64,000 nt of DNA from contig CM072512.1 of NCBI GenBank assembly GCA_036898135.1, forward strand, positions 10,662,428-10,726,427, given 5' to 3'. Shown piece by piece: positions 36,401 through 64,000 of the stretch. Below the pieces are notes generated by a model. It was not told the DNA's origin, made no database searches, and saw nothing but the letters and a program-made list of their open reading frames with translations. Within the stretch, counting starts at the first letter, position 1; each line of letters opens with the position of its first letter. Origin of the DNA: Oncomelania hupensis. Taxonomy: Eukaryota > Mollusca > Gastropoda > Littorinimorpha > Pomatiopsidae. The translations under genes were made by a program, and so were the position numbers.

Positions 36401-39318
36401 AAAACAAGATAAGAGTACAGCAACCCATTTTCTGGCATTTTAAAAAATATAATTCCTTGCAGGATGGAGGTGTGTAAGCAGTAAGAGCACTACAGGATGC
36501 TAAGAGTTAAAAATACTGACGCTCGTGAGTGCCAGGTGCACAAATATTTCCAGCAAGCACTGGGACACTGTTCCTCCCCTCTCTTCCACCCACCCTATCC
36601 ATGTTCACTCGGGATTGTGCTCGGTTAAATTCTTCTCGGTTCTGTGAATTCTTTCAAGCTTGATATCTTGCGGAGCCTGCAACAAGGTTTTGACAGAAAT
36701 AATAACGAAAGTTTATACTCAAGGTGCATAAAGCGACAATGCAGGTAAACTGTGCCTCTTAAGGAACTGTGCATTTGCCTCTGGACATAACAAATTGAAA
36801 ATATTTATTTATTCCTGCGCAGGTGGCGGTGACGTGTATCTGCATCTTTGTGATCCTGCCCTTGAACCTGGTGGGCACGGTACTGGGGCGGAACTTAGCA
36901 GGGACCCCGAACTACCCCTGCCGCATCAACGCTGTGCCCAGGCCCATCCCCGAAAAGAAGTGGTGAGTACTGTTTGAAATGCAATACAACTGTCGATCCC
37001 GTTCCCATATTAATGACAGTTTGGTTGCTGCCCTTCATCAGCAGCATTTCGTTTTCATTCGCAACTCGCATAGCAATGCGAGTCTGTATTAACCATAACA
37101 TCTTTTTAAATCCTGAGTTTTTGCAAATCTGTGTGAAACAAGTTATAAATAATCCAAAAATTACAATTAAAACAAAAAAATATGCCCGTCTGTCCATCTT
37201 TCTGTCTGCTGTCTGCCGTTCACCGTCTCGATGTGCAAAACTTGCAAGTGGATTAATAATATCTCAGAACGTATTTTAACTATTACAATCGTATTTCAAC
37301 TATCACAATCAACTTTGGTATCAGTGAATGAATGCACATCAAAGTCACAGAGCCAACAAATGTTAGTAAAAAAAGTTAATAGTTATTAATGTTGAACTTA
37401 TGTTTCTTTGCTGCATGATAGTAGGTACTCCAAGCCCTTCATTGGCTCTTGTCCGCTCAGCAGTTTTGACTCAGTTTTCACTTCACTTTCAACACTTATT
37501 ATTAATGTAAAACTGCATCAAAACGAACAGTGGCTGTATTCAAATAAAAATTGAAAGCTTTATCTTTACATCTGTGTTGTTTTTAATGCATGTTTATGCG
37601 AAAGATTCCTAGAAAACAGCTTTTGAATACGCCCCTATCCGAACGCTGAATGCCGCTGCGAAAAAATTGTCACTGTCGTTTGCTGAGAGGTGGCTCGTTT
37701 CAAAGTCTAAGCGCTTTGCGATACTTCATTGGATGGCCTAAAAATAAGAACCAATGAGAAGTTCGGATACTTAGCTTCATTTACATATAACTTATGGAAG
37801 GCTCTCGTGTGTAAACATTTTGTTACGAGCCGAACAAAGTGGATAAAGCGGTTTTGATGTAAGTTTGATTTTAACTAGAAGTTTAAAACTTAGCAAGAAA
37901 TAAAGAGCAGACTTTCCTTTATAAAACTAGGGTATTTATTAATTTGTGCATTACTGTATCGCGGAGCGCTTTGCCGTAGAAAAGCCTACCCAAACGGTGT
38001 TCGGGAATTCTTGCGGTCATTGCGTACTCGTAGGCCTATTCAGCGACACGCGTGCTGAGCGTAGTAGCACACCAGTAGGCGTATAATTTGCCGGCGCGCA
38101 CTGCGAATTTGATGATTTCCCAACTTTGAAGCACCAAAACGGCTGAACATTACATGGGAGAGGCCTGAAGAAAATTGGGCTTGGAGTATAACATATGAAG
38201 GGGTTACCTGTCAAAAATCAGCTTCCTGGTATCAATATTGGCTTCACTTTGAGACTCCAAAGTTGTCAATTTCTTCAATTCCAAAACGTTGCCAAAAAAA
38301 CACCAACATTCGGCATTTTCAAACATTAATAACTTTTTACCTATTTGTCCTATGGGGAAAAAAAATATACCACTGTGTTCAGAATGAAAAGCTCTTTAAA
38401 TCTATGTCAGTTTTGTGATGAGGAAATCATTTTTTAAAAATGGCTTTTGACTACCAATTCTATGCACATTTGGTCAACCTAACTCCTATGCCAAGGTCAC
38501 TGGGGCTGTCCAAAGTCATTCAGTATAGGTACATTGAAGTGAACTTGACCCTAAACTATGAGAGATATAAAGTTCAAAACTTGTATTAAGAGCTGATTGG
38601 TCTTTCATACATATTCTGTTTTTGGGTTGATCTTGAAGGTTAAGGTCATTTTAGGCCTTGCAAAAACATACACAAAGTAGGTCATTGTAAGGGGGGAAGG
38701 GGGGGAGGAGGGAAATATATATAAATATGAAAATAAATTAAATATATACATAAATAAATAAAGTGAAAGCAAAACATGAAATATCAAATCAGAACAGGTT
38801 CACACACAAACACACACACACCTACACACAAATGGCCATGACTGAGGTTTTAAGTATTTGACGAAGAAAAGTTCAAGATTGAGATTTAAGAATAGACACT
38901 GTTTTAATGTGTTTTCAGTCTAGAGTGAAAGGAAAGGTAATATTTAATTATTTTTTAGAGTTTGTTAAATTCTATTTTAAAATAAAAATTAATTAGCTTA
39001 TATTTAAAATGGGTAAATTTAGCTTTCAGTCGATTATGAACTTCTATATTTCCAAGTGAACACTTAAAAAAAAAAAATTTACAACTTTGGGTTATTTGAT
39101 CATACATAGCATTACATGTCACATGAAGGTCAAGGTCATCCCAAGGTCAGGGTCATAGAAGGTAAATGATCAGATAATGAATTACCCCTTGAAGGTTAAG
39201 ATCACAGTGTCAACAAAGGTTAGTTGTTTTTTTTAAAAGTAGACAGTTCACAAAATTTCACTTTTTTGTTTCCAAGTTACTAATATTGAACTTATGATTC
39301 TTTGATGCAGGATAGATG

Positions 39319-39373
<55 letters not shown>

Positions 39374-42300
39374 ATTGCATTTATACAACGCATTTTTCAT
39401 TAGAATAACAACTCAATGTTAGATATCAATGAGACACACACCCTATGCTCATATGGTCAACACTCCCAAAGTTAAGGTCACAGGAGCTATCCAAAGTCTG
39501 TCAGTATTGGTACTTTGACCTTGAGCCTAAACTATTGATCTTTCATATATGTTCGATTTTTTCGTTGATCTTGAACCCCAAGGTCATTTTAGGCCTTGCA
39601 AAAGCATATACGAAATAGGTCATAGTACAATGGAATGGCTCTTTTTAACCAAAAAAATACAACATTGGGTTGTTTGATCACACATGAGCATGAGAAGTCA
39701 TGTGAAGGTCAAGGTCATTGAAGGTCAAGGTCATCCAAAGATCACATGTGTACAGATAACAGATAACAGAACTTTATTTCGCCAAGTGACAAGCACGAGG
39801 AATACACTTTGATGTTGGCACACATATTTATACAAAACACAATAACAAAGCCAACCACACCTACGCGCAACCATCCACTTGCTGACACACTCATACAAGA
39901 CTAGGAATAATAATAATACAGTTGCTCTAAACAAGAATTCCCAGCGCCGGTGGCATGTGGCAGCGTCCGTCTTCCAATTCATGGAATATTTTATGTATTT
40001 GAATCGCATCACCCCTGATCCTGCACCTATGCAGAGAAAGTGTGAATCTTTTATGATGTGAATAACTTATTTATATTTTATGGTCTTTGCTTCTGTTGTA
40101 TTATAATTTGTGTTTTGAATGTCTTGCTTTGTGTTTTTCAGGTTCATGGAGCCTTCCGTTATTGTGGTGCTTGGCGGAGTCCTACCATTCGGTTCCATCT
40201 TCATTGAAATGTAAGTCCTATTATTTTTAAGAATCTAGTTGGAGACGTCGTTACTTTTCTTCTTCTTCTGCTTCATGTTTGCGTTCTCGAAGAATATATT
40301 TAACCCTCTAACCCCCACAGGAGCCTAAGCCTTATCTGCTTCTATTTCCTAGGTCAAGGCAAGTAACTCCGTCAAAATGCTACACCATGCACATATAAAA
40401 ATTAATTAATAATGCACCACCCAAAATTATGTTCCACTTATCATTATTAATAAATCAACCACATATTTTTCTTCAAAATGAAAGAATGTCAACATTGCAT
40501 ACTGCACAACATGCAGCAATACGATCACTGACTCAAATAATAAAGCACCGATTGTTCATCGTTTTTGTTATTCAAATCCGACAGAAAAAGATCGTCAAAG
40601 TGAAAGTCCAAATCACTTTCCTCTCCATCATTAACCTGCACCAAATTGGCTTTCTAAAATCCTTCAAATAGGTCATTTTCTTCATCAGATTCTGCAAGAA
40701 TCTGACGCCATAATTCTCCGCCTCTCAAACTTCAAACTTTAATCAAACTTTAAAAATTCACTGTGTGCGTTCTACACACTAAAAATGCCGTGAAAACGCC
40801 GCCGGAAACAGCAGGAAATCACGATCACGTGTGCGAGAATCTCGCGCGTTTGCTATAAATAGATTTCCACATGGCAGCCTCTGATCAGACCATGTCATTA
40901 CCGGCCGCTGCCGGTCGCTCCACGAGCATGCACATAGCAAAAATATCGGTCGCTCTAGGTCGCTCCGCGTGTTAAAGGGTTAACCTGTTTTCAGTAATCC
41001 AGATTTGAAATCATAAATGTCACAGGAACAGTTCATTTGGGTAAATGTCATTTTAAAAAAATCATGGCAAAATTTTCACTCGAAGATTTATTTTTGTGTG
41101 TGTGCATTTTGTTGTTGTTAAATCTACCTCTGGCCTGCATTCATTGATTTTTATGAACAATTGTGCATTAGGAGAGGAAGATGTGGGCAGTGGCTAAGAT
41201 CAGTACCCCCATTTTCATCTACTACTTCATTTATCGTCCACAGTCGCAGAAAATGTACTAAAAGGTTGAGATTTGGTGCCTACACTAACCTGAACGTTTA
41301 GGTTAACTGAAACGCGTTTCCTTTTATTTATTAAATTTTTTTTTTTGGCATGGCTCCAGTGATTGAATAAAATTGTGTGTCTTATGACTTTAAGTCTATC
41401 CCTAAATGACATGAATTCCAAACCATTTTCAGAGGTGCCTACCGTACGCGCTGGCGCGTATTTTTACGAATTTTCAACATAAAATACGACAATACGAGCA
41501 ATTCCTTAAAAATACGCATTTTCGTGGTGTAAAAAAAAAAAAAAAATCACACTGATTTTATGTTTCGATCTGCTATTTTATTTACTTGCTGACCCTATAG
41601 CGCATGCGCAAAAGTAAAATCTCGTGCGTGAGAGGTAGTGCGAGACTTTGTATCCGCCATTGTGCTAAACATGGTGTCGCGAAAGCGTTTACACGAGAGT
41701 GACGATGAGAGCGAGTCTGAAGAAAAGCGGGATAAGGTTGCAAGTAAGCAAAAAGCGCCACAACATTTCTTACGCGAATACCGTAAACGTTTTTGAGGAA
41801 TAATCGAATGTTCAAAAGGAGTTCATTATGCTCACTGCAACAAAGAGTTCAGCATTGCTATGCATACGACATTCAGCGACACTTAGATTAGGTATTACGG
41901 ACAAACATTTTATTTTGGTTCAGGATGTTTTATTTTGTTTTTATTATATAGTACAAACCTTTAGAAGATTTAAAAAAAATTTAAATTGTTAAAATAGGTC
42001 AATATTAAGGCACTCATACAACTGTTCAAAGTAGGTAACCCTCACATAAAATAAAACGCGTTTTTCCCAAAAGTGGCTCAGCCTCAGGTGTCTAAAATTA
42101 ATACAAAGTGGATAAAAAGGCACTGTATTTACACAACAAAATGCAGAACACTCTAGTATGCTCAGAAAACAAAAAGTGTTGCCAGTTTCAGCAGAATATA
42201 CGAAAATAATAATGCATTTATATATATACATAATTCATATTAATTAATTATTGGACAATATGAAGATCCTTTGGAGGAGGAGGGGGTGGAGGGGTATGGA

Positions 42301-45300
42301 GTAAAATACAACACAAAAATAATATATTAGTGTGCATTTGTGACCATAACTTGTTGAGTTCTATATTATTTTGTTTCATGAGAGGATTAAAATGGTGAGC
42401 TGGAATTAGTATGAATTGATGTTTTGTGAATGTGGCAGTTTTCATGACAATAATTCTTTGATCAAATGTTGCGAGTTGCGCGAAATCTGACATTACACAA
42501 AATACACATTTTTCATGCAGCCAGTACACAAATGGTCAGACTGGGGGTAGGCACCTCTGCATTTTAATGTTGTTTTTTTTTATTATTATGATCAAATTTA
42601 TTGGTTTTTGTGTTGTTAAAGTTACTGTTTTAATTGGTTGTTTCATGTTATATTGAAAGACTGAAGATCGAACAACGGTTGATCGAAAACTTGTCATCGA
42701 AACGTAGATTGAACAATGTAACCTAGGATCAGAACATCTTTAGATTGAACCGACACATGATCGAAATCATCTCAAAATCTAACCGTCAATATATCGAACA
42801 GACAAGTAATCGAACCAGTGTGTGACAGGGTAAATCTTATGAAAATATATAGGCTTGACTGGGGCTTTACAATGTGTGTTTCAGTTCTGCTTTAGGGTAA
42901 TCAAGATTTCTTGACTTGACTTAACTTTCATTCTACTTTGATAAATCGATTTTTCCCTGTGTTGATAATTTTAAATGATTGTGAAAGTCTGTTTATTTTT
43001 TTTAATATTTTTGCAAAATAATAAAATCAATAAAATAAACATTTTGGACGTGTGCAGGTACTTCATCTTTACATCGTTCTGGGCCTACAAGATCTATTAC
43101 GTGTACGGCTTCATGCTGCTGGTCTTCATCATCCTGACTATTGTCACAGTCTGCGTCACCATTGTTTGCACCTACTTCTTGCTAAATGCAGAAGACTACA
43201 GATGGTGAGTAATAATGTTGTGACTGGCACGCATGCAGCAGTGTGTCTTAATTTACTTTGCCCTCCCCCCACTCCTCTCCCCACACACACACCCACCTCC
43301 CCACCCCCCACAAATAACAGCAAACAAAACCAACAAAAATATTCAGATTGTTTCAGATCTGCATGAAATGAGTCCAGAATATTCCCAAAAATGATATTTT
43401 GTAAGCCTTGTGTTTGTTTGTCTGTCCGTCCCTCTGTGCAAAACTTCACAGGGGCTAATTACTTCAAAGGGACTAATTATTCTGAAACTATTTGACCTAT
43501 CACAAACAAACTTGGTTGGATGGTGTACATAGCCATGAGAGCTTTTAAAAGCTATCAGTGATTGAATGACCTCACTTTAAGTTCAAGGTCAGGGACAGCA
43601 CATTTTATTCAATCTTCACAGGAACATTACCTGGGTTTGTGTGTCTGGAAATGCATTTGAATGGCTTGCCTTCTTGTTATTTACTTTTCATTCTTAACAG
43701 GCTGGTGAACTCTCAGCGGATACGCTGATTTCTGCATTTTTCTTGCAAGATTCAGTAAGGTGGGAAAAAATTCATTGAAAAAAAAAAATCGGTAATTTGC
43801 AATTGATTGTGTGTTTTACTGAGTGACTATGTCCACACCCTGTAGGCGTGACTTCCCCAGCATTGGGCACGTGTGCCTTTGAATGCAACTTCCTGTTCCT
43901 TCTTGATCTGATTAAGTACTCCGGTGGCAGAATTGACGAGTATTGGAGAACAATAGATTCGCAAGCCTATCCAAACTTGACAAAAGTGGCCAAATCTCTA
44001 CTGTCTTGTTTCCATGGACCATTGGGGGAGTCCTCCTTCATTGCCATGGGAGATCTCGTGAATGAAAAGACCCTGGCACATGCTCTGTGAAACTTATTCT
44101 GGCCTGCAAACAGTCGGGTTCCATCTCAAAGCAAAAGGCAAAACATTGTTGGATTTGTTTTCCATGAAAGGTCCTGCGTGTGAACCAGCTGACAAAAGGC
44201 TGTGCAGTTCTATGCAAAAAGCATGGAAAAGCAGGAAGGAGCGTCAGGAAACAAACAAAGCAAAGGCCACTTTTTAAAAAAGTACTTGTTGCCTCACTTG
44301 ACAAGGCATCCACAAAAGAAGCTGACAAGGAAGCTTTTGATGCACAGGCAGCACAATCAAGAAGATTGACATAAAGAGACTGCAAGGTTGAGTCGGACAG
44401 TGTTTTCAAAAGAGCAAGGCATGCTAAGAATGTCAATGGCAGTGACAGTGTATCACTGTCAAACAGCTCTAGTGGCTTTAGTCACAAGAACATCCAACCT
44501 TCATGCAGCATAGAAAATGCCATCCAAACACCGCTCTCAAAACCAAGTTTTCAAGTTAAACAGAGTACCGATAAATGTTTTAAAAGTAAACTATGTTCAG
44601 TAGGCCTTGCCACATCATGTATGGCTGTGCATGATTTTTTATTTTTTTTTACCTCTCTAATTTCATACTCTAATTTTTGTTTTTATTTCCAAGAAAGAGG
44701 TCACAATTTTAACACTTGTGTGCCCACCATGGCTCTACAGAAGCTTTTCAGATTTTAAGGCCTGGTCAGCCAGGCTAGCTATAAATAGCTTCGCTGATGC
44801 TTTCTTTCACTGGAAGGGGGGTGCCGGCAAGCTATAAATAGCCTGCAGATTGAGAAACATGGAGGCACTGAACAGTGCTGCTCACATTGGAATTGAGCTG
44901 GTGTGTGCCATGAGGGGGTACACATTTGCCTTTAAAACAAGATTTTCTTTTAGCCCCCAGACCCGCTGAGCAGGCCATAGCCCTTGCACACCACCGGGAC
45001 CTTGGCGGCCCCTGGACACTGACCATATTTCAGTGTTTTTCTCTTGGACTTATTCTTTATCCTGTTGTTAAGTCGTTTCATTTATTTATTTATTATTACA
45101 CTTTGGTTGTTTATATTTTATTAATTGTTTCTATTACTGAAATTGAAAACAAAAAGTTATGAAAAAATTGTTTATCTATGTACCAGGCAATGGACAAGTT
45201 TCCTGGCTGCTGGGTCCACTGCTGGATATGTCTACATGTATTCCTTCTACTATTTCTTCTTCAAAACAAAGTGAGTACTTCTTCTTAAGGGCAGACCCCC

Positions 45301-48300
45301 CAAGTTACTAAGTTGTTCACTGATTTATGGTAAATTTCAGCTTTTTAGGTGAGAACATGTTTAGAATTACATAAAATACAGTTCATTCAGTGTGGTGAAG
45401 GATAATGTTTGGACGCTAGCTGAAAATGTGTTGAAATGTACAAAAAATATGACAAAACTGAGGAAACTAATGTTTTGTTATTGAATCAAAGTGGCATGTT
45501 GTTTGCAGTGTTATTTTATACATATATGGCATCTGAATGGGCACAAAGAAGGATTTTTGTTGTGAGGTGCACTTTCAAAAATATTGGCCGTGGAGCAATA
45601 CACCCCTAAAATTTAGGGGTAGGCATACAGTGTAGCATGAAAAAGAAAATAAGTAATAGACAGACAGGAAAAAGCTTCTTTACACCCATAAAGACATAAT
45701 TTTGGAACAAAACACAAAAGAAATTACATGTTTATCTCATTTACTTCCCGAGATATCATTGTCCTTGTACAAGTACCAAAATGAAAATCACGATTCTGAG
45801 AAAACGGCCGTCAAAGTTTTCACGCACCTTTTACTCCGCCAAAATCCAATTGTTTCAGTCCAGCTAATGAAATATACTGTTATATACAGTTCTTGTTGAC
45901 CTTTTACTGGTCAGCCATCATGCCTTGACCATAGACCTCCCCCTCAGCATCATGCTGGCGAGCTTGATTGCCCTGTTCCTGGAGACGGAGACGGCGCCGG
46001 CGCTGAATGAAGCCTGGTTGGGATGCAGTCTCTGCTTTCTTTATCCTGTCTAGGTCCTGGCCCATCAGCAATTGCAGTGTGGTCAGGTTTACATCCATGG
46101 ACAGGTGGTTCATCGCCTCTGCCAGGTGAAATCTGCCCCTATTGAACCGCCCTACTGCTGCGGCAGCAGCGGCATCCACTCGCCTTTTGCCAACAAAGCG
46201 CCCCTTTGGCAAGATCGACCACAGCAGAGCATTGAATGATTCATTTGGGTTCTGGGTCTTGCCATGGACTACTCTCTGCAGAAGCTGGTCAGAAGACATC
46301 CTGCGGTAAAGCGGCACCAGCTCCATCGCAACTTCATAGCACAGCGAGGTCTTGACATGTCGCTCGTGTGGGCCTGGATTCTCGCCACGAGCACGTGCAC
46401 GCTGCCAGAAGCACCACGAATCTGTCTCTGTTGACATAAGAAAAGATGATTTTTGTTTTTTTTAGAATGGATGACAATACTCCAGGTTATGACTACTGGT
46501 ATTCACACAGCTGACACGCAGAAAAACATGCGCATGAATAACAAACACACGCACAAATTTTAAAAATGCACGCACCTTGTGGGCACCTCAGATGGTGTGG
46601 TTGACGGTCAGTGGAGGAGCAGTGGAAGAACGTAGCCCAGATAGCATTCTTCATGAATTCGATGCTGTTGTGGTTCTGTCTGATGGCCTTCTGGTAATAC
46701 AGTTGCAGCTTGCCGCACTTCTCAAGCGTCAGGCGTCCAGCTCCCCTTCCTCCAAGCTTTTTTTCCTTGGCCAGTCTCCGCAGCGCAGTGCCCATTCTCT
46801 TGTGGACGTGGTTGATGCAGTCTAGCTTGGTAGGGATGCGGTTGTCTCCATATGGTCTGTCCCTCTCAACGGCGGTGAATGCAACTGAATCGCCATCAGA
46901 CAGCATTGTCCTGTGACACAAAGATTGAAAGAAAAAAATTCAGAAATTGAAAAAAATAGGTATAGCAGAAAGATTTACCCAACCATTGTAATAATGATAA
47001 AAGTCAGTCCAATGAATAAACATGAATCTCGCACTATAATACTGTTCACACACAAGAGTAAACTGAATACATTTGAAATATAAACAAACATGAATCTTAC
47101 ACTATAATACTATTCACATACAGAGTAAACTGAACAGATTTGAAAATATAAACATGTACCTGTAACGAAATCCTGTTCTTGCCACCGAGTTTCTCCACAG
47201 AAACTAGGTACTCCAAACTGAATTTCACATCTTTTTAAAAATTTAAAAACTTTGTGTTTTCTGAAAGGGCATAATGCACTGATTAAATTGATATCAAATC
47301 CATATCTGTAGCTTAATTAGAAGCAAAGTTATGATTTTTTTAAATAATTAACTTTACTCGCAATTTGTACTTGAATAGTTACACCTTCCGAAATGAGATA
47401 AAACACCATTTTTAAGGTCCAGTAACTTGTCTGTTTGCAATAGCATAAGCCCCATTTTCAATTTTCTAATTCTCCAATATACAATGTTATAGCTTGATTT
47501 TTTGCAAGTTGTTACTAAACCTAATACTTGAATGATTAGTCACTAAATAAGACCAAAAACGTCAAAATCGGTGCATATTTGTTATACGCCATTTTTCCAC
47601 CTTCAGCAAAAAGTGTAACTTTGCTTCTAATTAAGCTACAGAAATGGTTTTGGTATCAATGGAAAGGTCTTATTATTTGTAATTCAGCTAGAAACACCAC
47701 TAGTTAATCAAACTCAAATTAAAAAAGTTAAGCCAGGTTAATTTTTAAAAAAATTTGAAAAATTACGTTGAAGGATATGGCAGCAGCAAGAATTTCTACA
47801 ACAGCCTGCTGTAGGCTTCAGCAATGGCTTGAATGTCTGCAACTTGCCAAACTCTGCCATCATTGCTGACAGGCAGCACCTCTACATCCCAACGAAACAC
47901 AAATTTGCTTTCAACTTGGGCAACGTCTTCAAGTCTTGGCCACCTGAAGTAGTCTCTACGACCTTTAGTGTTTTCAAGGAAGGTGACATGGGCTGCTTCA
48001 TTGCTCAGAATGTCCAAGACTTGGCCTATGAAGAATCTTTCATCGTAGTAGACAGCAACCCATTGACCTTGCCTGGAAAACTGATGCGGTCCACTTGGAA
48101 TGAAATCCTCTGTCCGTTGACGCTTTGATGGAGGAGGATCCAGTAGTTCGTCATCACTGCTGGAGTCATCAACCTCATCGGGACGTGGTCCCAAGTGAGC
48201 CTTGAGAGCTTGCTGCAGTTCACCAGTTGTTGATGTTATTTTCAACCCTTTCCCCACTCCAAGAACTTGCTTCTGAAACCGTACTTCATCCTTCAGGGCA

Positions 48301-51300
48301 TTCAAAATTCTAGGTTTTGAAGCGCCATCCCTCTTCAGTTGCTGAACAAGTCTACTGACATCACTGCCAAAGCAGCATGGTCCACCATGACGACGGACTC
48401 TATGGAGAATACTTGCTCTCTGTTGTGCCACTTTGGCCTCCTTCCTCTTCCGTTCTTGCTCGTTTTGAAGCAGCTTTTCTTTAATATGAAGTTTTACAAG
48501 AATCTCTTGTCTCTTGTGTTCTTCTCGTAGTGCCTTGCTTTTTCTTCTAGCCATTGCCATGATGTTTCCAGCATCTTCTTTGTCTTGAAGCCATTTTGTT
48601 GTTCTGTTGTGCTTCATCATGAGAAGGCTAGTGTGATGATGAAAGGAGGCATTATGAGATTTGTTGATGTTGAAATCCATATCTCCAAACACATTTTCTC
48701 CTAAAAGATTGGTGATGGGACAGTGCTTCAGTACTTCTACAATCTCAGGTGGCTGATCTTGTCCATACTTTCCACCAGCTAGGAAGTCTGCTAGCTGCAA
48801 ACGAGTTACTACAAGGAAGTCTCGCATGATGACTTCAAGTGCGTGTTTCACAGTATCGTGATGTTCAGATGCAAACTTGATTACAGCTGCTTTCATGACA
48901 GTGTTGACTTGGAACTCCACGCCAAACACCCCTTCAAAGTGTGCATCCATCAGTTCACTGGCATCTTCCATCCACCTCTCGATACACCTCTCCAGCCTCT
49001 GGATATACACAAACAGCTCGTGGTACTTTTTCTCACTCTCGAGCAGTTTCCAAAATGGCCCAGTGATGGTAATGTACAACAGTGCTACAGCACAGACAAG
49101 TGCAAGCAAGTTTAAGTCTTTTATATCTTCTGCCAGGCTGTCGATCTTCAAGTTTGAATGACCCAGCAAACCGCTGTGGAGGAAGGTGTTCATGTCTTGC
49201 AGATGGTGCATGACAGCAGCTGCTGACACAAAAAAACAGTTGAACCTGTTTGAGCGGTAACTTGTCAGCAGGCTCTTGTTTTCCAGGAAAGCTAGCCACT
49301 CTGCCCTGCAACCATTTTTTTCATCACCACGAGGCCCCATGAGACTAGACGCTAACCGTATCACTCTCGCAGTTGCTGGTTCATTGTTTCGGAAGCGCTG
49401 AAATTTCTGCAAAATGTCTCTGCCTAGCTTCCTTTCCAGCTGCTCTATCAGCTCTACTTCAATAATCTTCAGTGAACTCTCGCAAGATCTACCAAGACCA
49501 AGCAGAAAATGGGCATTGCATTTCAGAAAGTGCATTGTAATGTCTTGCCCTAACGTGGAATTTACAAAAGTGGACAGTTTTGTGCCAAACAGCTTCATAA
49601 CTGCAGCTCTATCCGACATGCAGCTGGTGATCTTGGAGAGAAGAGCGTTAAAAATTTCTTCCTTTGTCTCATTTGTTTCCTCATCAGCATAAACATCAGA
49701 TAGTTCTTGCAGAATTGAAATTGTTACTTCGAGTAATGTTTCCGAGTCTTCTGTAGCCACAGTTTTTAGACCTAGATTGAGTGTGGTTCCATTGTCCAAT
49801 GTTATCTGTTGACCCACTATTTTATTGCCGCTTCTAGAGGTTCCATCTGTATGAAGTGTAATGTTATCTGATGCAAGAATTTGTTTGGCGGCCTGAACTT
49901 TGGCAATCACATGCCCTTCATCTGCAATGTTAATAGCTGTTTGAAGGCATGGCAGCTCCTCTCCACATAGATTAGTATTGAATAAATTGTTTGCAACAAT
50001 GCTGATCACTTTACTACATTGCCCTGCTGCAACGTTGGCATCACCTTGGAGTGACATTATTGTTTTTCTTACACCATCGCTGTAACGGTTTTTTTCACCT
50101 GCTCTGAGCTGAACCTTTTTCTCTTCAGCAGGGGTAGCAACGACTTCATTAAAAAGGTCTTGCACTTGCTGTCGTAATTCATCATTCTCTTTTTCCTTTC
50201 CCTTCATTGCAGTTTTTAGTTTACTGGCTTGCACTCTTGTTCTCTGTAATGTGTTTCTCACCTCCTCAAGTGTTTTCTTTGCAACAGTTTCTTTCTTAAG
50301 TGCCATTCGAAGGTCATTTCTTGTCTTCTTTAGCTTCCTTTTGAATCCATTCAGCTGGCGAATTATGTATTTGTTCTTTGCCTTTGTACATGTAGTTTGT
50401 AGTTGTTGAACTGTTGTCTGTAGCACAGCATTTTCTTGGGTCTTTTTGTCAAGGTCCGCAGTAAGGCTGATCTTTTCTTTGGTCACATCTTCCAGAGCTG
50501 CCTTTAACACAGCCAGTTCTACTTTGAGATCCTTTAGGTTTTCTTGTAAAACACCATTTGCTTTGCTGAGCTGTTTGATCTCTTTTTCTTGTGGAGTCAA
50601 AAGAGTGGCCGTTGGTTGTGTACTGGCTGAAGAGTTGTGTTGGTCTACGGTTTCAAAAGGCGTTGACAGAAACAAAGAAAGAGCTTCCTTTTGATGGGAA
50701 TTCTTGCATAGCCGTTTGTAAGCCTCCATCAGTTTTTTAATAGTTTTCCTCAGGAGTGCATCTGGTGCAGTTGTGAGCTTAACTGACAGCTTCTTGATCC
50801 ACTGATGAGTAAAATTTTCTGGCTGTTTCTCTTTACATCTAAATAGTTCAAGGTCAATAACAGTTTCTTGTGTCAGGGCTTGTAAATGGTCAGGTTGTGT
50901 CCACTCACTCTCTTTCAACAGTTGACCTCTCTTAAGACCAATCTTAGATAACGAAATAGATATATGATCAAAGTCGACGACAGTCCTCAGAAATGAGTCC
51001 ATGTCTCCACCATCTCTTTGTAGTTCTTGGAATTTCTTCTTCACTCTGTCTAGTGCAGCACTAAGACGAGAAGTTGGGTAGCTGACATCAGGGAAAAGCA
51101 TGTTGAACCATTGGGAAACCTGAAACATACAAATTTAATAATGTCAATAATAAAAATTTAAATAAATAAGTAAGCCAAACATTTTAGAATGTCCGAACAA
51201 ATTTAGTCTTTTGTGGTCAAGTTCATCATATTAATTTATTAGCAAAAGTATTATGATTGGTTTAAAAAAAAAAAAGTGCTCTTCAAAACAAAACCACACT

Positions 51301-54300
51301 TTTTAAAAATTCATTACATCATTTGATGTCTTTTTTCCTTCATCCTGAAGCTTCTTCAGCTGTATCAGTAGACAGTTTGTAAGGTGCACTTCTGGCAGTG
51401 CGGGAGGTCTGCCTCTACCAGGAAGGAAGCATCTTTTCAGATGTTTGTAGATGTTATCATCTGCAAAATGCACAAGCAACATGTTTTGTTACATTTATAC
51501 CAATAATTAATAGTGATGAGAGAGGGAGGGAGTGAGGGAGAGAGAGGTGTGCTATGCTAAGGATAGTTTGTGAATAAGAGACAGGTGCTATGATAAGGAT
51601 ACTTATAACTGACAAAACTAAGATCCATACCAGCCCAGGAATATAAATAGTGCATCTTTTCAAAGTTTTTAGACAAACACCACTTTGTACAGATTAAGTT
51701 TTGCCCACAACACATCAGAAGGGAAAAGACTGCTTTGCAGAACAATTTCGAAAGTAGGTTGTTCGGCGGTCACGTGACCTACCAATGTACGGAAAAATAA
51801 GCTATTAATCGCTTAAGGTGACGCATGGCGTGCAAAAACACACATTTTGCATTATTGGCAGTTTCTCCTAGACTTCTCAACATATTTTGATGAAACTTGG
51901 CAGGAATGTTGCCCACATAGTAGCAGAGGTGCATGCAAAGTCTGATTAATTTGCATCATCAAACAAAAAGGTTATGAGAATAAAAAAAAAAATAAAGAAC
52001 AATTAATTTGTGTCCATTTTTGCCCCCTTGGGTACAGACAGACAGAATGCACTAAAGAGCTAAGTATTCATGTTCTGTCATGTTTATGATTTGAACAGTG
52101 CAATAAAAGTGTTAAAATTGTAAATTTGTAAGAGGAATTGGGTATGTGCTTAAATGAGTATATCGTCTTACACAAGAAGCATGTTCACACACTGCTGATC
52201 ATGTATAACTCAGAAACTATGTCACTGACAGTTTTCATTGTGGTTTTATTGCACTCAGGATGCATTTTTACTTCAGGGTGCCAAATTTTATGCATGAACT
52301 ATTATTTTAATTTAGAAAAAACTGGGGGGCAAATTCGATACATAACGGTAAAGTGCTATTCTGAGAAAATGGCATTTGAAAAGAAGAGATGCTTTTGCAA
52401 CTATATACATATGAATAACATAATGTACTGAACTAAGAAACATAACCAAATCATAAAACACTATTAACTACAACCCCAGGCAAAACACACTCAGTTCTAG
52501 AACTGCCCTGCACCATACACCTGCCCCTCCCTCCCCCTGCGAGCCTCGCGTTCCTCGCGACGAATATTGTCCATTGTCTTCCGACGCTGTTTCGCCTGCT
52601 CGCTGCTCTTCCCTGTGGCCTGTTGCACCCTCCTCACATCAGCTCTGACTACAAAGTCCTCAGCAAGTTGTCCTGCCACCAGGTCTAGCTCTGTTATTAC
52701 ATCCAGCAGGGCTGAGGACCCCTTGTTGAAGCGCTGGACAGCTACGGCCACGGCGATGTCGACAGTGCGCATGCAGGCCCACCGCTCCTTGGGGCATGAG
52801 CGCCACACCATGGAGTGGAACGCCTCATTTGAATTTTGGGTCTTGCCACTCAGGCAGCGTTCCAGCAGTTGGCGGTCCCCCAGTCGCTTGTATACTGGTA
52901 CCAGCTTTGACATAACTGGCTTTGGGATGGGATGGGGGTGAGGTCGAGGCGGGACACCGGCAGCCTGGTCACGCTGGTAGAAACACCAAGAGCTGGGGCC
53001 TTGAGGGCATCTGGCATGGTGAGGGTCCTCATCTGTACTGGAAGTATGGAAGAAGGAGGCCCAGACTGCCTGCTCCATCTTGTCAAGGTCGCCTGCGTTG
53101 TCCTTGATGGCCCTTCCATAATAGTTTGTCAGCTTTTTTATACGGGCATCTGTCAGCTTCCCCCTCCCTCCTATCGACTGGCCTGCTGCCTTGCACTTGT
53201 CCACTACATTGCGGAGAGCAGTCCCCATGCGCTTGGTCACATGGTTGACACACTCAATCTTGGTCACGGGATGGTCCTCGCCATAAGGATCATCTGTGAC
53301 CACAGCCGAGTGTGACTTGGCGTCACCATCCCCCAGCATGCAGGTGTAGCGGAACTTGTGCAGCTCCACAGACCTGCCAAACATGATGACGGCTGCCTTA
53401 GTCTCCATGGCTGCAGCAGAACAGTCAACATTCTTTTGGCAATTGGACTCGTGCTTCTGCCACCACTGCTGGTACTCCGGTGAATCTTCTGCAGGACCTG
53501 CTTCGCACGCCTGGCAAAAGTTGCTCAAAGTAACAAAGTCCAGCACTACTCCAGTGTAAACGTCTATGACAGAAGCAATGCCTGTGTGTGAGCTGTACCC
53601 TCGTTTGTGCCAGGACCCGTCGAACGAAACGCTAATGTCCAGGATGCCATCAGTGTCTGGGACACCAAGATACATCTCCTCATAGGTCCTCCGCACTTGA
53701 TCAGCTGCTTCCTGCAGGTGTCGGTCGGCAGCCCTATTGGCACCAGCAGACAACCGCTTCTGGTAATGCTGCCAGGTCTTCAGGTGCATTGGAGGTGGCA
53801 TATTCAGGAGGGCAAACAGGCGGGTAAGCTGTGTGAAGCCCACTCCATTGAGAGAGGCAGAGGTGATGAGGCGGCGGTTGATATCATATCCTGTGTGGAT
53901 GACACCAGTTCTCTGGGAACTCTTTCCCTCGCTGAAGATGTTGTCACAGTGGCTGCACTTCAGCTTCAGATGACAAGCAGCACCCTTTCGCTCATTGGTA
54001 TCATTGATGAGGCAGAGCTGTAATCACAAGAAAATACAACTAAGTACCCCTGAAGAAAACAAAATAATAATTAAATCAATCATGGAGAGATAGGAAGGGG
54101 GTGGGATGGGAGAGAAGGAATGGTTTGCTGCAAAGTAGAATACACAGAATGTAATAACAATCAATCATGCCTCACCTACCCATCTCTCTACACAAAAAAT
54201 AAAAACAAACAAAAATCACACATGTATCAGCTGGTTACTCAGGAAAATGGAGTTGAGGAAAAAACGTTTGCTGCAAAGAATGCACAAAATGTTGTGAAAA

Positions 54301-57300
54301 AAATGCAGTTAAACAGTAAAATGCATATATAACCTTTTCCACCCACCTCCACACAAACACTATGTTTATAATAAAATACAATTAAAAAAGGCATACAAAA
54401 TTGTTTCAGTAGCTGAGTAGGCCTACTTACACTATGTCCACAATCACTACACTGGACAGGTGACAGCAGATCATTCAAAGCTGGAAGATTAGCGATGAAA
54501 TTGATGTCTTCAGGAAAGGCCAGCACTTCATCAAAATCTCCAACAGCGCCAACAGTTTTTCTTTTTTTGTTTGGTACACTGACTGGGTCAGAAAAAAACA
54601 AAAGTTTCTTTGACGATGTTGAAGGCTGATCGGTTGACAGTGTTTCCGGAGCTGGGACACTCGGTTCAATCACAGACTGCTGGCTAGCAGTTTCCGATCT
54701 TCTCTTTCTCCTTTTCTTCCCGAACTTATGTATGGTTCGAAACTTCGTTCCCTTCTTGTTAGGCATCTCGAATGATGATAAACGTTGTAAAAGAGCTTGT
54801 GAACTTGTTGATCGAACTACGAAAAGCGAATATAGTTGTAGAAGAAAGCATCCCGGAAGTTGCTGTCGTGTTATGTTTGATTGGCCCATAGACCCGATCA
54901 CGCACTGTGCACATGCCCTTCGACCAATCGGAACATCGGCTTTCAGTGACCTTCGAACCGAGCCAATGAACGTACGAGTTTGTCGAAGACAGTCCTTATA
55001 CGTTTCTAGCTCATTTTCCCGTTTCGCTAAAAATAGCGCGATGAAGTGGCTATCAATGAATAGACGAAATCGTCAGCTTTACGTTGATAGTAAACATGGC
55101 GGCATTCGGTGCGGAGGAACGCGTGTTACTAGGGCTTGAAAAGCGAGTTTTTTTGGATGTGTTTGAGTGTATGCGGAAAATTTAGCCATACCCCACTGTC
55201 ATAAAGAGCTTTATTTACACAAATATCGCTAACAAAAATCAGAAACAGTTACAGAGCCATGAAGCAAAGACATCAGTGGACCATTTTTTGCAAAAATCTC
55301 AAACATGCCAAAATGACCATTTTTCATCATACCACCATGCCGTGCGTCACCTTAAGAATTTTAATTACCAGCGTAATTTTTATCCTTAATCATTATGCTT
55401 TCAAGTTCCATTTACATTCTTCGACAAGTAAAGTTTATAATAATTCTCTCGATCTATCTCTGAACCTACCTAGTAAAGAACAACACAGCCACTTCCGGTT
55501 CTGGTTAAAATCGTACAGTGGCTGAATGAAATAATTATTAAACACAAAATATGTTTACACAAAGCGATCACTCAAAATACAAATAAAACTTTATTCTTTG
55601 TACTAACCAACAAGAGAATCTAGAGTCTTGGATGATGAGTGAGAAGGCATTGGGCTGTTGACAAAATCAGAGTCTGATGGCAACACTGATGTTGACTGGT
55701 CCGCCATTGCGACGCTTGTTTAGTCGAGCGAGGAAGGCAAATTTCGCGAATACCGTCTCTCTTTGATTGGCGATCGCTTCGCGTAGAAGTCTTTATATGA
55801 CTTCTAATGTGGCTAATTTTGTTGTAGAAAGATTCTTCTACAATCTGATATTTTTGGGTCTCCGTCGGTTTTGTCTTTCTTCTCGAAAATTGACTTCGAA
55901 GTTTTCAAACCCTCACAATTTTTTTTAGTTTACTTCGCCATGCTCGCGAGTGGTATCAAAACGAGGCTCAGCCTCTCTTCTTTCATTTGGTTGGTCAATA
56001 TTTATAGTGGTGACACGTAATGCAAAGCGAAACGAGTTTTATTGAGAGTGACTGGAAAGGTCAACTGGTGCATCAAATGGCTTCGCGCTCGGCGAGTGAT
56101 CGTTGGGTGAGGTGTAAAAAAAATCATTTAAAAATACAATTGGTTAAAATAGACACACACACAGTTACAAATCAAACAAGCAAAGACTATTTATTTATGT
56201 GGTGTAAGTTTTGGTTTATTTTATGTTATTTTACCTTGTCTACCAGCGATTCAAAACAAGGCAAAAACAGGTCAAACAGCTTAACTTTCCTGCTTTTGAG
56301 GCAGAATGGAGTACCTACAGAAACAAAGCCGCATCTTTTTCCATAGCTTTTGAAGATGCATAGTGGTTGCGCTGGCACTGTTCACGATGTGTCTCCATCC
56401 ACTCGTCCCGCTGCTCCTCGGTGAACTGCGACAGGCCTTTCAGCTGGCATTGGTGGCAGTACGTTGACATGACGTAAAAGTCAATGACATAGCCTGTCAA
56501 CACGTCTACAACAACGCCGACACCATAGTGTGAGACATGGCCGCGCCGCTGCCACGTGCCATCAAATGCCACATCGATCCACTGTATTCCGTCAACATCC
56601 CAGTCATCTGTGGCGTCATCACTTGCAGTGACGGGATACTGTTCAGCATATAGTTTTTTCACTACTTGCAGCACCTTTGGCATGAGGCTTATTTCGTTAG
56701 CTTGTACCTGTGCAGTGCACACGTTTTCCTGAAGTCGCTGAAATGTTTTTTCAGTCATGTTTGGTATCCCAAACACACTGCACAATTTTTGCAGTGTGCT
56801 ATACCCTCCCCCTGTTTCCATGCAGAATAACACAACACGTTGGTTCACATCAAAGGGGTGGTCATTCCTGTCACTGTCAAATGTTCGCGGCGAGGTGTAG
56901 GCGGAGTTCATGTATACACAGTTGTCATCTGTGCATCGGAGCACCATCTTCCTAGAAAGTCCTGATTTGTCCCCAAACTGGAGAGACACCGGAGCGCTCT
57001 CACAAAGTGGACACGAAATGTCGGACAACACTAGGTCGAGTTGACCTCTTTCAATCACAGACCACTCGTGGCATCCAAACACGGACTGATCTTCCCGCAA
57101 GCCGTCTTCATTCTCGTCTTCGTATTCGGCTACACGAAGCAACTTCTTCACTGATGCTGATCGGTATGGGCGTGTCGGCTGGTTCGAAGGATTGTTCACA
57201 CTGGCATCGCAAAGTGGGGAACTCGAGTGTCCATTTTCAGCAACAAACAACACTTCCGTGGCAACAACATCGCCGACTTCATCGCTATTACAACGCCGCT

Positions 57301-60300
57301 TTTTCGCTTCTCGCATTTTCTCCATGCGGGTCTTCTGTCCCCTTGATTGTTTACCATGTTTTGCCGTAGAAATGGTGCATTTCTTTGTTCTACCCATAGC
57401 ACTGTCACCTTTTCTTTTTCAATCAGACGCAGAAAATCTTTACTCGCTTGGCGTGCTTTCTCTCAGGAAGTAGAATTGTGGGATACCTTCTTGGGTGCCG
57501 GAGATTCCCGAAGTAACTAGAACGAACTGACGGAGCATGCGCAGCGATATGCAAATGACTTCCGACCAATCGGACGCAAGGATGTGCCATATAAGGAAAT
57601 ATCCGTAGAGTTTCTCCCAGTCATTTGAGTGACTGTTGAGCGTTTGCGACTAGGAATTTCCCCATGCAAATGAGGTTACCGGAAAGTAGACGTTATCACG
57701 TTTATTTTGGTATACGGGTTTCCCGGTAGCGCGCGGTCATTCTGTCCGTAACCAAGGCTCAAATATACGTAAAATTGGCTGCCTTGAAACAAAAGCTTGC
57801 ACAAACCATGACAAAGGACTTCACAAAAATACTTTATTTTACCCATTTTCGGCCCATACTGAAGCAAAAACTATTTATAGGATGATTGTAGAAGGTTTGA
57901 AGATGCCAAAACAGCAAAAAAATAAAAACACGTTTTTTCAAGCAATTTTAGCATTTGGGGGCTGGGAGGTCTGGCCTTAATCTAAGATTAACTCGGTAAA
58001 AGTCTACAAAGCAGAATTTAGGGGATGAAGGGACAAATGGATTTTCTACAAAGGAGATTTCAAATTAAAAGTGTAGTTTAGTGTTTCTTTTTTTCTTCTA
58101 GGAGCTAATCAATATTATAAAGAGGATATTTCAACCTATTATTGAACTTTTTTGTGTGACTCGCATGCATAGCAGTGTAAATCTATGTGCTCAAACCTGA
58201 AAAAAAAAATTCAAGATTTTTGCAAATCTGTGCGAGATGAGTCTTAAATAGTCAAAAAATAATATTGGAAACAAATTTGCAAAAATTTTAAAGTTGCTAA
58301 GAGTAGGTCCTTATGAATGATCAATGAATGAATGATTTCACTTCAAGGTCAAGATCACAGGGTTATCAAATATTAGTCAGAGAGTGACCATTTTTCACAA
58401 AGGTAGAAGAAAAGGGAGACAAAGAGTTGGGAGGACAACATTCGAGAATGGACTGGCTTGACACTGAGCGAAGCCATGAGGGGTGCGCTGGTAAAACGAT
58501 CATCTGTGGTGCCCCAACTAGTAGTTGGCACACAGACCGAGCTAAACATATAAATGTATTAAGATTAGTCATAGGGTGATTAACTCTTAGTCTCATATAG
58601 CAAAACAGCACGTTGATCTTCTCCTTCATGTAAGGATTTGACAAAAACAAGCCAAAAATAGGTGCATGTGTTTAAAATGCTATATCTACTGAACGGTTGG
58701 TCAGAGCTTCATGGGACTTAGTCAGTGTGTAGATGATTGGTAACTATGCAAGTATTGAGTAAGCTTTAGTTCTGTCAGTGTCATCTGTCTGTGTTACCTG
58801 CTATTTTACCTGTGATTATGGGTAATTTAACAACCAATTCTTCGGATGATGAAAGGTCCGATCTGTAGTCGGAAAGATCGCTAGTGTGCACACTAGACAC
58901 TGACAAATCACTCTGATTTTCATTCCATAACTGATCAGCCCTTTCATCTACTAATTGCTGCCACAACTGCTCATATCATGTAGACTCATTGTCGGAATCA
59001 GATTCTGCCATTTTTAGAGTATCCCCGCTCTTGAAAACGCGACCAAAAACTAAACAAAAACTTCGATTAAAACGTTTTGTTGACACAACTGCAGTTGACA
59101 GGAAGGAAGTACAATGCTTTTAGAATAAGCTAGTGCGCATGCGTAATTGGAACTGGTTTCCGTTAAGCCGGAGAGAGGTGCTAAAAGTAGACGGTAACTA
59201 GGCGCGGTTTACCGCGCTTCATGAGCCGTGACGAACCGCGGTTTACCGCGCTTCATGAGACTAAGAGTTAAACTAGCCGATTCCCGCAGACGAAAGATGA
59301 GTGGGTAATAGCATTCCATTGTGCAGAGCCCAGCAACAATAGACCCACCATCACACAAATTAAAAGGAAAATAAAAGTTTGCGAATGTAAAAACAGCACA
59401 AAAGACCAAGTGTACAAGGCTGGGAAAAGCATAAATGAATTACAAACCACTAACAATCCACATTTTTAAACAACCACTATTACAAATAACACACTTAATT
59501 TTTTTCTAGATAGATTAACCAGTAAATAATTGTTAAATAATGGTGCCAACAAACGCCAAAATTTCATATTGCCACATGGAAAAAGTATGCCGCTTGAAAG
59601 GCCTAAGTGAAGCAACAACTGACAAAGGCCATAAGCTTTATTTCAGCAGGAGAGATGACAGGCATGAACACGGTGTTGGATTCTTGGTCCACAGAGACAT
59701 TCTAGCCACTGTTATGGATTGTCACCCCACGGCTGTTCATAAGCGGGACTTTCAGGCTATGGCTAAAAATAACTCTTGTGCTGTTCATTATCACTGGCTG
59801 AACTGCTTGTAGCCAGATCCGAGACGCTGGCTGTGCATGGGTTTCGCACGGCTTGGCCTGCTGGCGTGGCTAAAAATAGCTTACAGCTGGTGGCTGAAAG
59901 TTTACTTTCAATGAAGGAAGTTTCAGCCGTGACCCAGTCTCGAGTAGAGACCATCTGTTTGAGAGCAGCCCTTTCAACATCATCATCATCCAGGCCTATG
60001 CCCCAACATCAGACTACGACAACAGCGAAGTGGAGGATTTCTATGAACATCTACAGGCTGTCCTTGACAAGTGCTGAAGAAGGACGTAGTCATAGTGCAA
60101 GGCGACTGGAATGCCAAGGTTGGCCATGATGTATACCACAACTGGGTAGACACATGTGGACCCCACTGCAACAACCAGACAAATGACAGGGTTCTGAGAA
60201 TTTAAATTAAAGTTTCAAATTTTATATATCTCCTGTCACCTGTCATGAGAAACAAATTGTAACCACGCTAGTTTGATGGACCATACAGCTTGGATTAACT

Positions 60301-62159: not shown

Positions 62160-64000
62160 CAAAGGAGTGCATATTTCTAATGACAAGGTAGACAGAAATT
62201 CTAAATGAAGAGACAGAAACATCTGAAAGAAATTCATAGAAATCTGAGATATGTACAGACCAAAGAAGCTGTGGATCATTCCTGAACTATTGGACCTGTG
62301 TGACAAACCAAGAGAGATGAAAGGATAAAGAACACCTCACAGGGTGCTGATACTTACCAAAAAATCAACAGTGACATCCAAAAAGGATGCGCACAGCAAA
62401 GCAGAACTGGGTAGAAGATCAATGCCAGGAAATAGAGAAAAGTCTGAACAAGCACAACAAGAAGGCATATGAGACTAAAGCAGCAGACAAGTGTTAAACA
62501 GCTCAAGGTGTGCATGATCCAAAGCACGTCTGGCTTGTGCCTTACAGAAGAACAAGAAATCTTGGATAGATGGACAGAGTACTGCTATGGCACTTACAAC
62601 CACACACTAAACGGAGACCCATCAGTTCTAGCATAACCCCAGAACAGAGAAGAAGAAGATATCCTCCCAATTCTCAGAGAAGAAGTTAAGGCAGCAGTGC
62701 ATTTGCTGAAGAATGGGAAATCAGCGAGAGTGGACAACATACCAGCAGAATTGCTTCAAGCAGGAGAAGTTATGATTGACGCCCTCACCATCATCTGTAA
62801 CAAGATCTGGAAGAGTGGGGAGTGTCCTACATCATGGACCCAGTTGCTTGTCATCATTCTTATCAAAATGTGTAACCTTCACGAGTATCAAAACTATCAC
62901 ACTATCAACCTCATCAGCCATCCCAGCAAAGTCCTCCTGAAAATGATACTCAACAGATTAAAACCCCAAGCTGAACAAATCCTAGCTGAAGAGCAAGCAG
63001 TATTAGGGCAAAGTACCACTGAGCAGATTTTCAACCTCAGAATAATCTATGAGAAATACCTAAAGCACCGTGGATATAATGTGTTTGTAGAGTTCAAGAA
63101 AGCGTTTGATTGAGTCTGGTGTGCAGCTCTGTGAGCAACCATGAGAGTGTACATCAGCCCCAATATTAATAAAGTCATCAAAAGCCTGTATGACGAGTCT
63201 AAAAGTGCAGTCTTCCCCAACAGCGCCAACTGGAACTGGTTTAGAACAACAATCAGCATTCTTGAATATCTGTCTAGAGTGCATCATGTCAGATGCCCTT
63301 GCAGATCACTAAGGCACAGTCAGCATAAGGTGTAGAGCAATCTCCAACCTCCGTTTTGCAGATGACATTGAGGGATTGGCTGGAGTGGAACTTGAACAAG
63401 GGCTTGACACCACCTCCAGAGCCTATGGAATGGAAATAAGTGCAGAAAAGACCAAAACGATGACCAACAAAATCAGTAGCACCAACGCCGATATCAAAGT
63501 CCAAGGCCAATCCCTCAACGCAGTGCATAGCTTCAAATATTTAGGAACAATTGTATCCGACAGGAAGTCTTCTCAAGGATAGCACAAACAACTGCTGTCC
63601 TGACAAGGTTGAAGCCCATTTGGAAAGACGGGACCATCAGTCTACACTCGAAGGTATGGTTGCTGCACTGCCTTGTAATCTCCCTCTTTCTATACTCTTG
63701 CGAAACATGGACCCTCACAGCAAACCTACAACTAAGAATACAAAGCATGGTGATGAGGTGCTACAGAAGACTTCTGGGCATCTCCTGTGCCAAGCATATC
63801 ACGAACAATGAAGTAACAACAGACCATCACACAAGCCATTGGACAACATGGTTATTTGCTCACAATGGTGAAGAAACGGAAACTCTGATGGTATGGCCAC
63901 ATCACGAGAGCATCAGGCTTTGCAAAGATCATCCTGCAAGGCACGGTGCAAGAAGGCAGAAGAAGATGGAGACAGAAAAAGAGGTGGGAAGACAACATTC
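62160..64000 (+). mobile_element. RTE-like LINE reverse-transcriptase region, degenerate, open at the right edge
   Basis: The main frame (62697-63113) includes HLLKNGKSARVDNIPAELLQ, EYQNYHTINLISHPSKVLL and FVEFKKAFD, then a stop. Later frames carry NWFRTT, SNLRFADDIEGLAG with an intact FADD catalytic motif (about 63341-63382), YGMEISAEKT and HSFKYLGTIVSD. The right edge cuts the copy in the KKRWEDN tail region. Stops and frameshifts make it inactive. It lies in TM9SF3 intron 14, between exon 14 and the missing last exon. Confidence 0.85.

Follow-up and report, generated by a model that had tools for sequence, protein, structure and literature searches.

Eukaryotic DNA transposons that move by DDD/E transposases fall into a short list of superfamilies, 20 by one account of Repbase (PMC9587614) and 21/23 by another (PMC10045372). 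For the P element the catalytic residues are given as D230, D303, D339 and E531, with spacings of 73, 36 and 192 residues (PMC8230255), and a terminal consensus, YARNG, is quoted for P (PMC2820524). hAT elements are assigned to the C/DxxH group (PMC9587614) and make target-site duplications (TSDs) of 8 bp, or of 5, 6 and 7 bp in hAT5, hAT6 and hAT7, respectively (PMC12730594). Dada elements are described as lacking terminal inverted repeats (TIRs), inserting in small RNA genes and encoding two zinc fingers (PMC3706591). Here we describe an element, termed element C, at positions 47205-56317 of a 64,000-nucleotide stretch of the Oncomelania hupensis genome (contig CM072512.1; "the window" hereafter), the whole of which is rich in transposons. 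Element C appears to be a complete and intact transposon. It is probably a cut-and-paste DNA transposon with a DDE mechanism, and it most likely lies within the hAT/P/MuDR/Kolobok/Dada "C/DxxH" group while fitting no named superfamily on the features tested, which for MuDR were Pfam profiles only.

Element C is bounded by perfect 11-bp TIRs, TAGGTACTCCA at 47205-47215 on the plus strand and, in inverted orientation, TGGAGTACCTA (plus-strand reading) at 56307-56317. Directly outside them stand two identical 7-bp copies of CAGAAAC, at 47198-47204 and 56318-56324. When the whole window was scanned for exact 11-bp inverted pairs 300-15000 bp apart with matching outer 7-mers, element C was the sole pair recovered, and among flank lengths of 4 to 11 its two sides agree at length 7 only. 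A looser scan (at least 11 of 15 TIR positions and a TSD of 7) returned 8 pairs from the window and 1-5 from each of 20 dinucleotide shuffles; element C, with 13/15 TIR positions, ranked at the top of the window list. The short TIRs and 7-bp duplication described in a first-pass annotation of this DNA are therefore exact in their coordinates and form a unique strict pair in the window.

The insertion site provides a second view of the duplication. Element C interrupts a Kolobok-like gene of the minus strand, the 5' part of which lies at 56325-57397 (PF20700, Pfam E 4.8e-34); the open reading frame (ORF) as listed, 56315-57397, extends through the duplication into the final 3 bp of element C. 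The next exon of this gene is found in the ORF at 46493-46921 on the same strand (142 aa, E 3.2e-15). When element C and one CAGAAAC are excised in silico, the PF20700 frame becomes continuous across the junction, and the match to the protein of a second Kolobok-like transposon, nested inside element C and described below, ends at residue 154 for the filled site and reaches residue 170 for the rejoined site. This places the insertion point inside an exon and confirms the 7-bp duplication independently of the TIR search.

A single gene on the minus strand of element C would encode a transposase of 1188 amino acids. Its predicted exons are at 55608-55707, with the start codon at 55707, at 51318-51460, and at 47796-51119, the last including the stop codon and specifying residues 82-1188. 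The predicted intron borders, inspected by eye, read GT-AG, and the second exon includes an AT-hook-like GRGRPP near residue 49. Joining the three exons gives zero internal stops and exactly the protein length put forward in the first-pass annotation; the last exon is covered by an uninterrupted, ATG-started ORF of 1110 aa alone. Because its ends and duplication are perfect and its frame is open, element C is probably autonomous and recent. The non-coding left end, 3' of the gene, also includes a long imperfect palindrome (47223-47760) with outer arms of 21 bp that are 90% alike (47223-47243 and 47740-47760) and inner arms of 53 bp that are 89% alike (47287-47339 and 47608-47660); no comparable palindromic repeat was found in the 609 bp of the right end. 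The palindrome may serve the transposase as a binding region, or it may represent a foldback element nested there.

The predicted protein carries the D/D/CxxH/E residues that the first-pass annotation had pointed out, namely D506, D584, C615-N-A-H618 and E889, with spacings of 78, 31 and 274 residues. This string was picked after the fact but is suggestive, since only about 0.04 [C/D]xxH motifs are expected per given 20-residue interval of the protein. We assign a putative catalytic role to these residues from their position and context. A long coiled coil was also proposed for the protein. In its favor are sub-cut-off matches to SMC proteins (NCBIfam, 4.6e-05; query residues 161-361, or approximately 240-440 of the full protein) and heptad periodicity, significant at no more than 0.01 of shuffles reaching the observed value, in 3 of 5 segments between residues 253 and 420. 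However, 4 further segments elsewhere are also periodic (7/41 in total), and thus periodicity alone is not specific.

Taken as a transposase, the protein would bind DNA through its N-terminal part with the AT-hook-like motif and might multimerise through the coiled coil. Next would come a catalytic core of DDE type, assigned to the C/DxxH group, in which a long segment separates the CxxH from the last E; a beta domain would form the C terminus. By binding at the TAGGTACTCCA ends, such an enzyme would cut out element C and reinsert it through staggered cuts 7 bp apart. The intact-looking copy, exact ends and rejoinable target would suit an excision assay.

Several results weigh against this reading. 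A DDE/RNase-H core is not confirmed by any match at the level of profile, sequence or fold. The element C protein matched zero transposase profiles in Pfam and NCBIfam, and the 561-aa core matched no Pfam family at E values up to 10. Searches of PDB sequences gave no match for the 1110-aa ORF at E up to 1 and a single match for the core (E 0.55), which we take as chance. An AlphaFold model of the core, predicted from the single sequence, had a predicted local distance difference test score (pLDDT) of 37.9; its best Foldseek match had an E of 1.3, and no transposase appeared among the best 50 of 151 matches. By Chou-Fasman values the first three proposed strands of the core are only mildly strand-like (the fractions of random segments from the core with higher values are 0.17, 0.14 and 0.11), and strands 4 and 5 are unremarkable (0.37 and 0.35). 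Finally, the autonomous element was encountered in one copy only. The Pfam library itself works on such proteins, because the neighboring 142-aa Kolobok ORF is recognized at 3.2e-15. The inability of the first-pass annotation to place element C agrees with the absence of transposase matches in Pfam and NCBIfam, but a no-match obtained with a single sequence is compatible with distant membership of a superfamily.

The C-terminal region had been described as Tudor- or SH3-like. This idea draws weak support from the best Pfam match of the C-terminal piece, to HAS-barrel (E 0.14, below the cut-off), and from SND1/p100, Drosophila Tudor, TDRD1 and 53BP1, which recur among the best 50 of 196 Foldseek matches, all insignificant; the fold is not established by them. 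The single-sequence AlphaFold model of this domain (pLDDT 39.8) has three consecutive strands, its best Foldseek E was again 1.3, with nothing below 1 for either model, and no match to PDB sequences was obtained at E up to 10. The structure comparison proposed with the first-pass annotation was thus carried out on single-sequence models and allows no conclusion on either fold: the RNase-H core and the Tudor fold are hypotheses that it neither supports nor refutes. Targeting of the protein to chromatin is a guess.

The remaining parts of the protein were also compared with profile and sequence collections. Three sub-threshold Pfam matches were obtained for the 1110-aa ORF, none of them to a transposase, and one for a 180-aa piece from the N-terminal half; the 156-aa joined N-terminus gave none. 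A search of PHROGs returned one weak match of unknown function (E 0.044). Back-translated pattern scans of viral contigs identified 5 stretches with a 1109-aa query and zero with a 407-aa core piece, and a scan of prokaryotic genome contigs identified 11 stretches; none of these are relatives. Degenerate patterns were also used for two sequence blocks, of which the NRFN type occurred at 18 viral and 13 genome loci and the WVAV type at 4 viral loci. With tblastn the 1188-aa protein reached a best E of 0.16 against the 22 viral pattern loci and of 0.84 against all 35 pattern loci with low-complexity filtering. At three of the loci (L001, L007 and L016) the motif sits in 35-residue frames, and we take these matches as chance. 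Because the collections consist of viruses and prokaryotes, negative pattern scans say little about a eukaryotic transposon.

Several placements of element C can be weighed, all of them compatible with a cut-and-paste mechanism and with each other. The P superfamily, including the P element, Galileo and THAP9, resembles element C in its 7-8 bp TSD, in the D-D-[C/D]xxH-E order and in the long segment before the E, and Galileo is reported to make 7-bp duplications (PMC2775673). The D-D-[C/D]xxH spacing is also alike, 78/31 in element C and 73/36 in the P element, although element C has CxxH where the P element has DxxH. The string expected of a DDE triad with [C/D]xxH is present, and the core, in which a GTP-binding insert would lie, was modeled at a pLDDT of 37.9, too low to make out the fold of such an insert. 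Zero Pfam matches to P-element profiles were obtained and no THAP match in Pfam, and the 1188 residues do not include C-x2-4-C-x35-53-C-x2-H, the THAP zinc-finger spacing. YARNG ends are known for hAT as well as for P. TAGGT at both termini of element C fits the YARN part, or four of five positions, but has T where YARNG has G, and so departs from the consensus. We regard a divergent P-superfamily element, with a large insert before the E, as an improbable identity for element C.

A divergent hAT element seems equally doubtful. Element C shares with hAT the C/DxxH group (PMC9587614) and short TIRs, and its 7-bp TSD agrees, among hAT lengths, only with that of the fungal hAT7 group (PMC12730594). 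However, BuT2, a described hAT, is 643 aa long (PMC3942097), compared with 1188 aa in element C. Pfam matches to the hAT dimerisation domain, DUF4371 and BED are all lacking, and the two hAT-like elements of the window differ from element C in their ends (CAGAGGTGCC) and in duplicating 6 bp. BED-like spacing was also absent from the protein. The ExxF at the proposed last E of element C resembles a hAT motif. Both hAT7 and P thus fit by duplication length, without support from their diagnostic domains. Somewhat better than even, in our judgment, are the chances that the lineage of element C has been catalogued before, for instance by Repbase or Dfam or as unnamed proteins of many animal genomes, and has no Pfam model. 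The lack of any Pfam match for the element C protein is consistent with this. Weakly against it, a literature search for the terminal sequence gave papers unrelated by title among the matches listed; no transposon with the ends or domain set of element C was found in a literature coverage that omits most subscription papers. Unnamed proteins of similar layout may occur in fish and cnidarian genomes; if they do, element C would be part of a group that is widely distributed and perhaps without a name.

Of the other superfamilies compared, Dada, Kolobok and piggyBac were rejected. Dada shares a 6-7 bp TSD, the C/DxxH group and a large multi-exon transposase, but element C has perfect TIRs and a protein-coding exon as its target; its protein contains zero CxxC anywhere, and the CCCC and CCHC zinc-finger spacings of Dada are absent. 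ARAGORN detected no tRNA in the window, nor did any Rfam model match there at its gathering score. Kolobok shares the D-D-CxxH order, but the duplication of element C is the 7-bp CAGAAAC rather than TTAA, its ends are TAGG..CCTA rather than RR..YY, and its protein has no PF20700 match. piggyBac is excluded by the absence of a TTAA duplication and of a piggyBac DDE profile match. By their duplications, ends and profiles, then, both the neighboring Koloboks and piggyBac are distinct from element C, as the first-pass annotation held. Within the KDZ group Kyakuja, like element C, has a 7-bp TSD, but is described with CA..TG ends and no TIRs, and Zisupton/Dileera with 8-bp TSDs (PMC12730594). Element C, with TIRs, TAGG..CCTA ends and a 7-bp TSD, departs from these features, and its protein gave no Pfam match to KDZ. 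A KDZ model is included in Pfam. For MuDR, no MULE/MuDR profile was matched, a comparison limited to Pfam.

It is possible, but on balance we doubt, that element C represents a superfamily absent from Repbase naming. Such a superfamily would be characterized by TAGGTA..TACCTA ends, a 7-bp TSD, and a CxxH core that holds an insert of some 270 residues and is preceded by a coiled coil and followed by a beta domain resembling chromatin readers; non-autonomous elements of its own would be present in the same genome. In Repbase, a new superfamily is recognized when PSI-BLAST does not converge with another superfamily (PMC4455052). Few DDE superfamilies are listed for eukaryotes, and one more would bring with it an enzyme of new architecture.

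Element C appears to have non-autonomous relatives in the window. An element at 26580-28500 begins with the same left 11-mer, TAGGTACTCCA, and has the right end TAGGTAGTCAA read inward; its right terminus, at 28500, reads TAGGTAGTCAAAAGCC inward, and CTCTAAG stands on both sides as a 7-bp TSD. It measures 1036 bp without an 889-bp, TTAA-flanked insert (27554-28442), whose ends and short N-terminal frame look like those of piggyBac by eye. A second copy of this repeat, at 37422-38455, also starts with TAGGTACTCCA and is 97.6% alike over 981 bp; its right end is damaged, with the terminal bases missing, and no TSD was found. Two TAGG..CCTA pairs with a 7-bp duplication, element C and the element at 26580, were observed where 0.36 are expected among 4440 pairs within 12 kb. 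In the loose scan the pair of the 26580 element alone is not beyond chance, as equally good pairs arise in shuffles; we accept the element because it shares its left 11-mer with element C, because the repeat recurs at 37422 and because such pairs exceed expectation. Repbase assigns non-autonomous elements to a superfamily when TSD lengths agree and the 11 terminal bases differ at no more than one position (PMC4455052). Element C and the 26580 element both have TSDs of 7 bp, and their left ends, with 11/11 bases alike, agree with this rule, whereas their right ends, with 9/11, fall short of it; common mobilization is thus likely but not proven.

The Kolobok-like transposon inside element C lies in its first intron, at 51813-55355 on the minus strand with TTAA included at both ends, and carries a PF20700 gene (E 5.7e-55). 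Its TTAA-flanked ends were recovered again in the loose TIR/TSD scan, and they read GG..CC, which obeys the RR..YY rule given for Kolobok (PMC9587614). The order of insertion is the outer Kolobok, then element C, then the inner Kolobok, before whose arrival element C would have been approximately 5.57 kb long. The nesting of a Kolobok in element C in a Kolobok thus gives relative dates for three insertions.

The two possible hAT-like non-autonomous elements are at 41430-42559 and 32551-33835, with CAGAGGTGCC-type ends and 6-bp TSDs (CATTTT and TCTGTG); we presume a hAT affinity from their ends. An ORF on the plus strand at 31567-31980 resembles, by eye, a hAT transposase at its C terminus; Pfam gave nothing for it at E values of 0.01 or less. 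Duplications of 6 bp are reported for hAT6 (PMC12730594). Fragments resembling LINE reverse transcriptase are located at 23925-24317 and 11250-11891 on the minus strand and 62697-63113 on the plus strand, and only the first of these matches Pfam (PF00078, 1.1e-05, below the cut-off). Finally, a plus-strand ORF of 460 aa at 3380-4762, with a C2H2 zinc finger at its end (PF00096), is perhaps an exon of a host gene.

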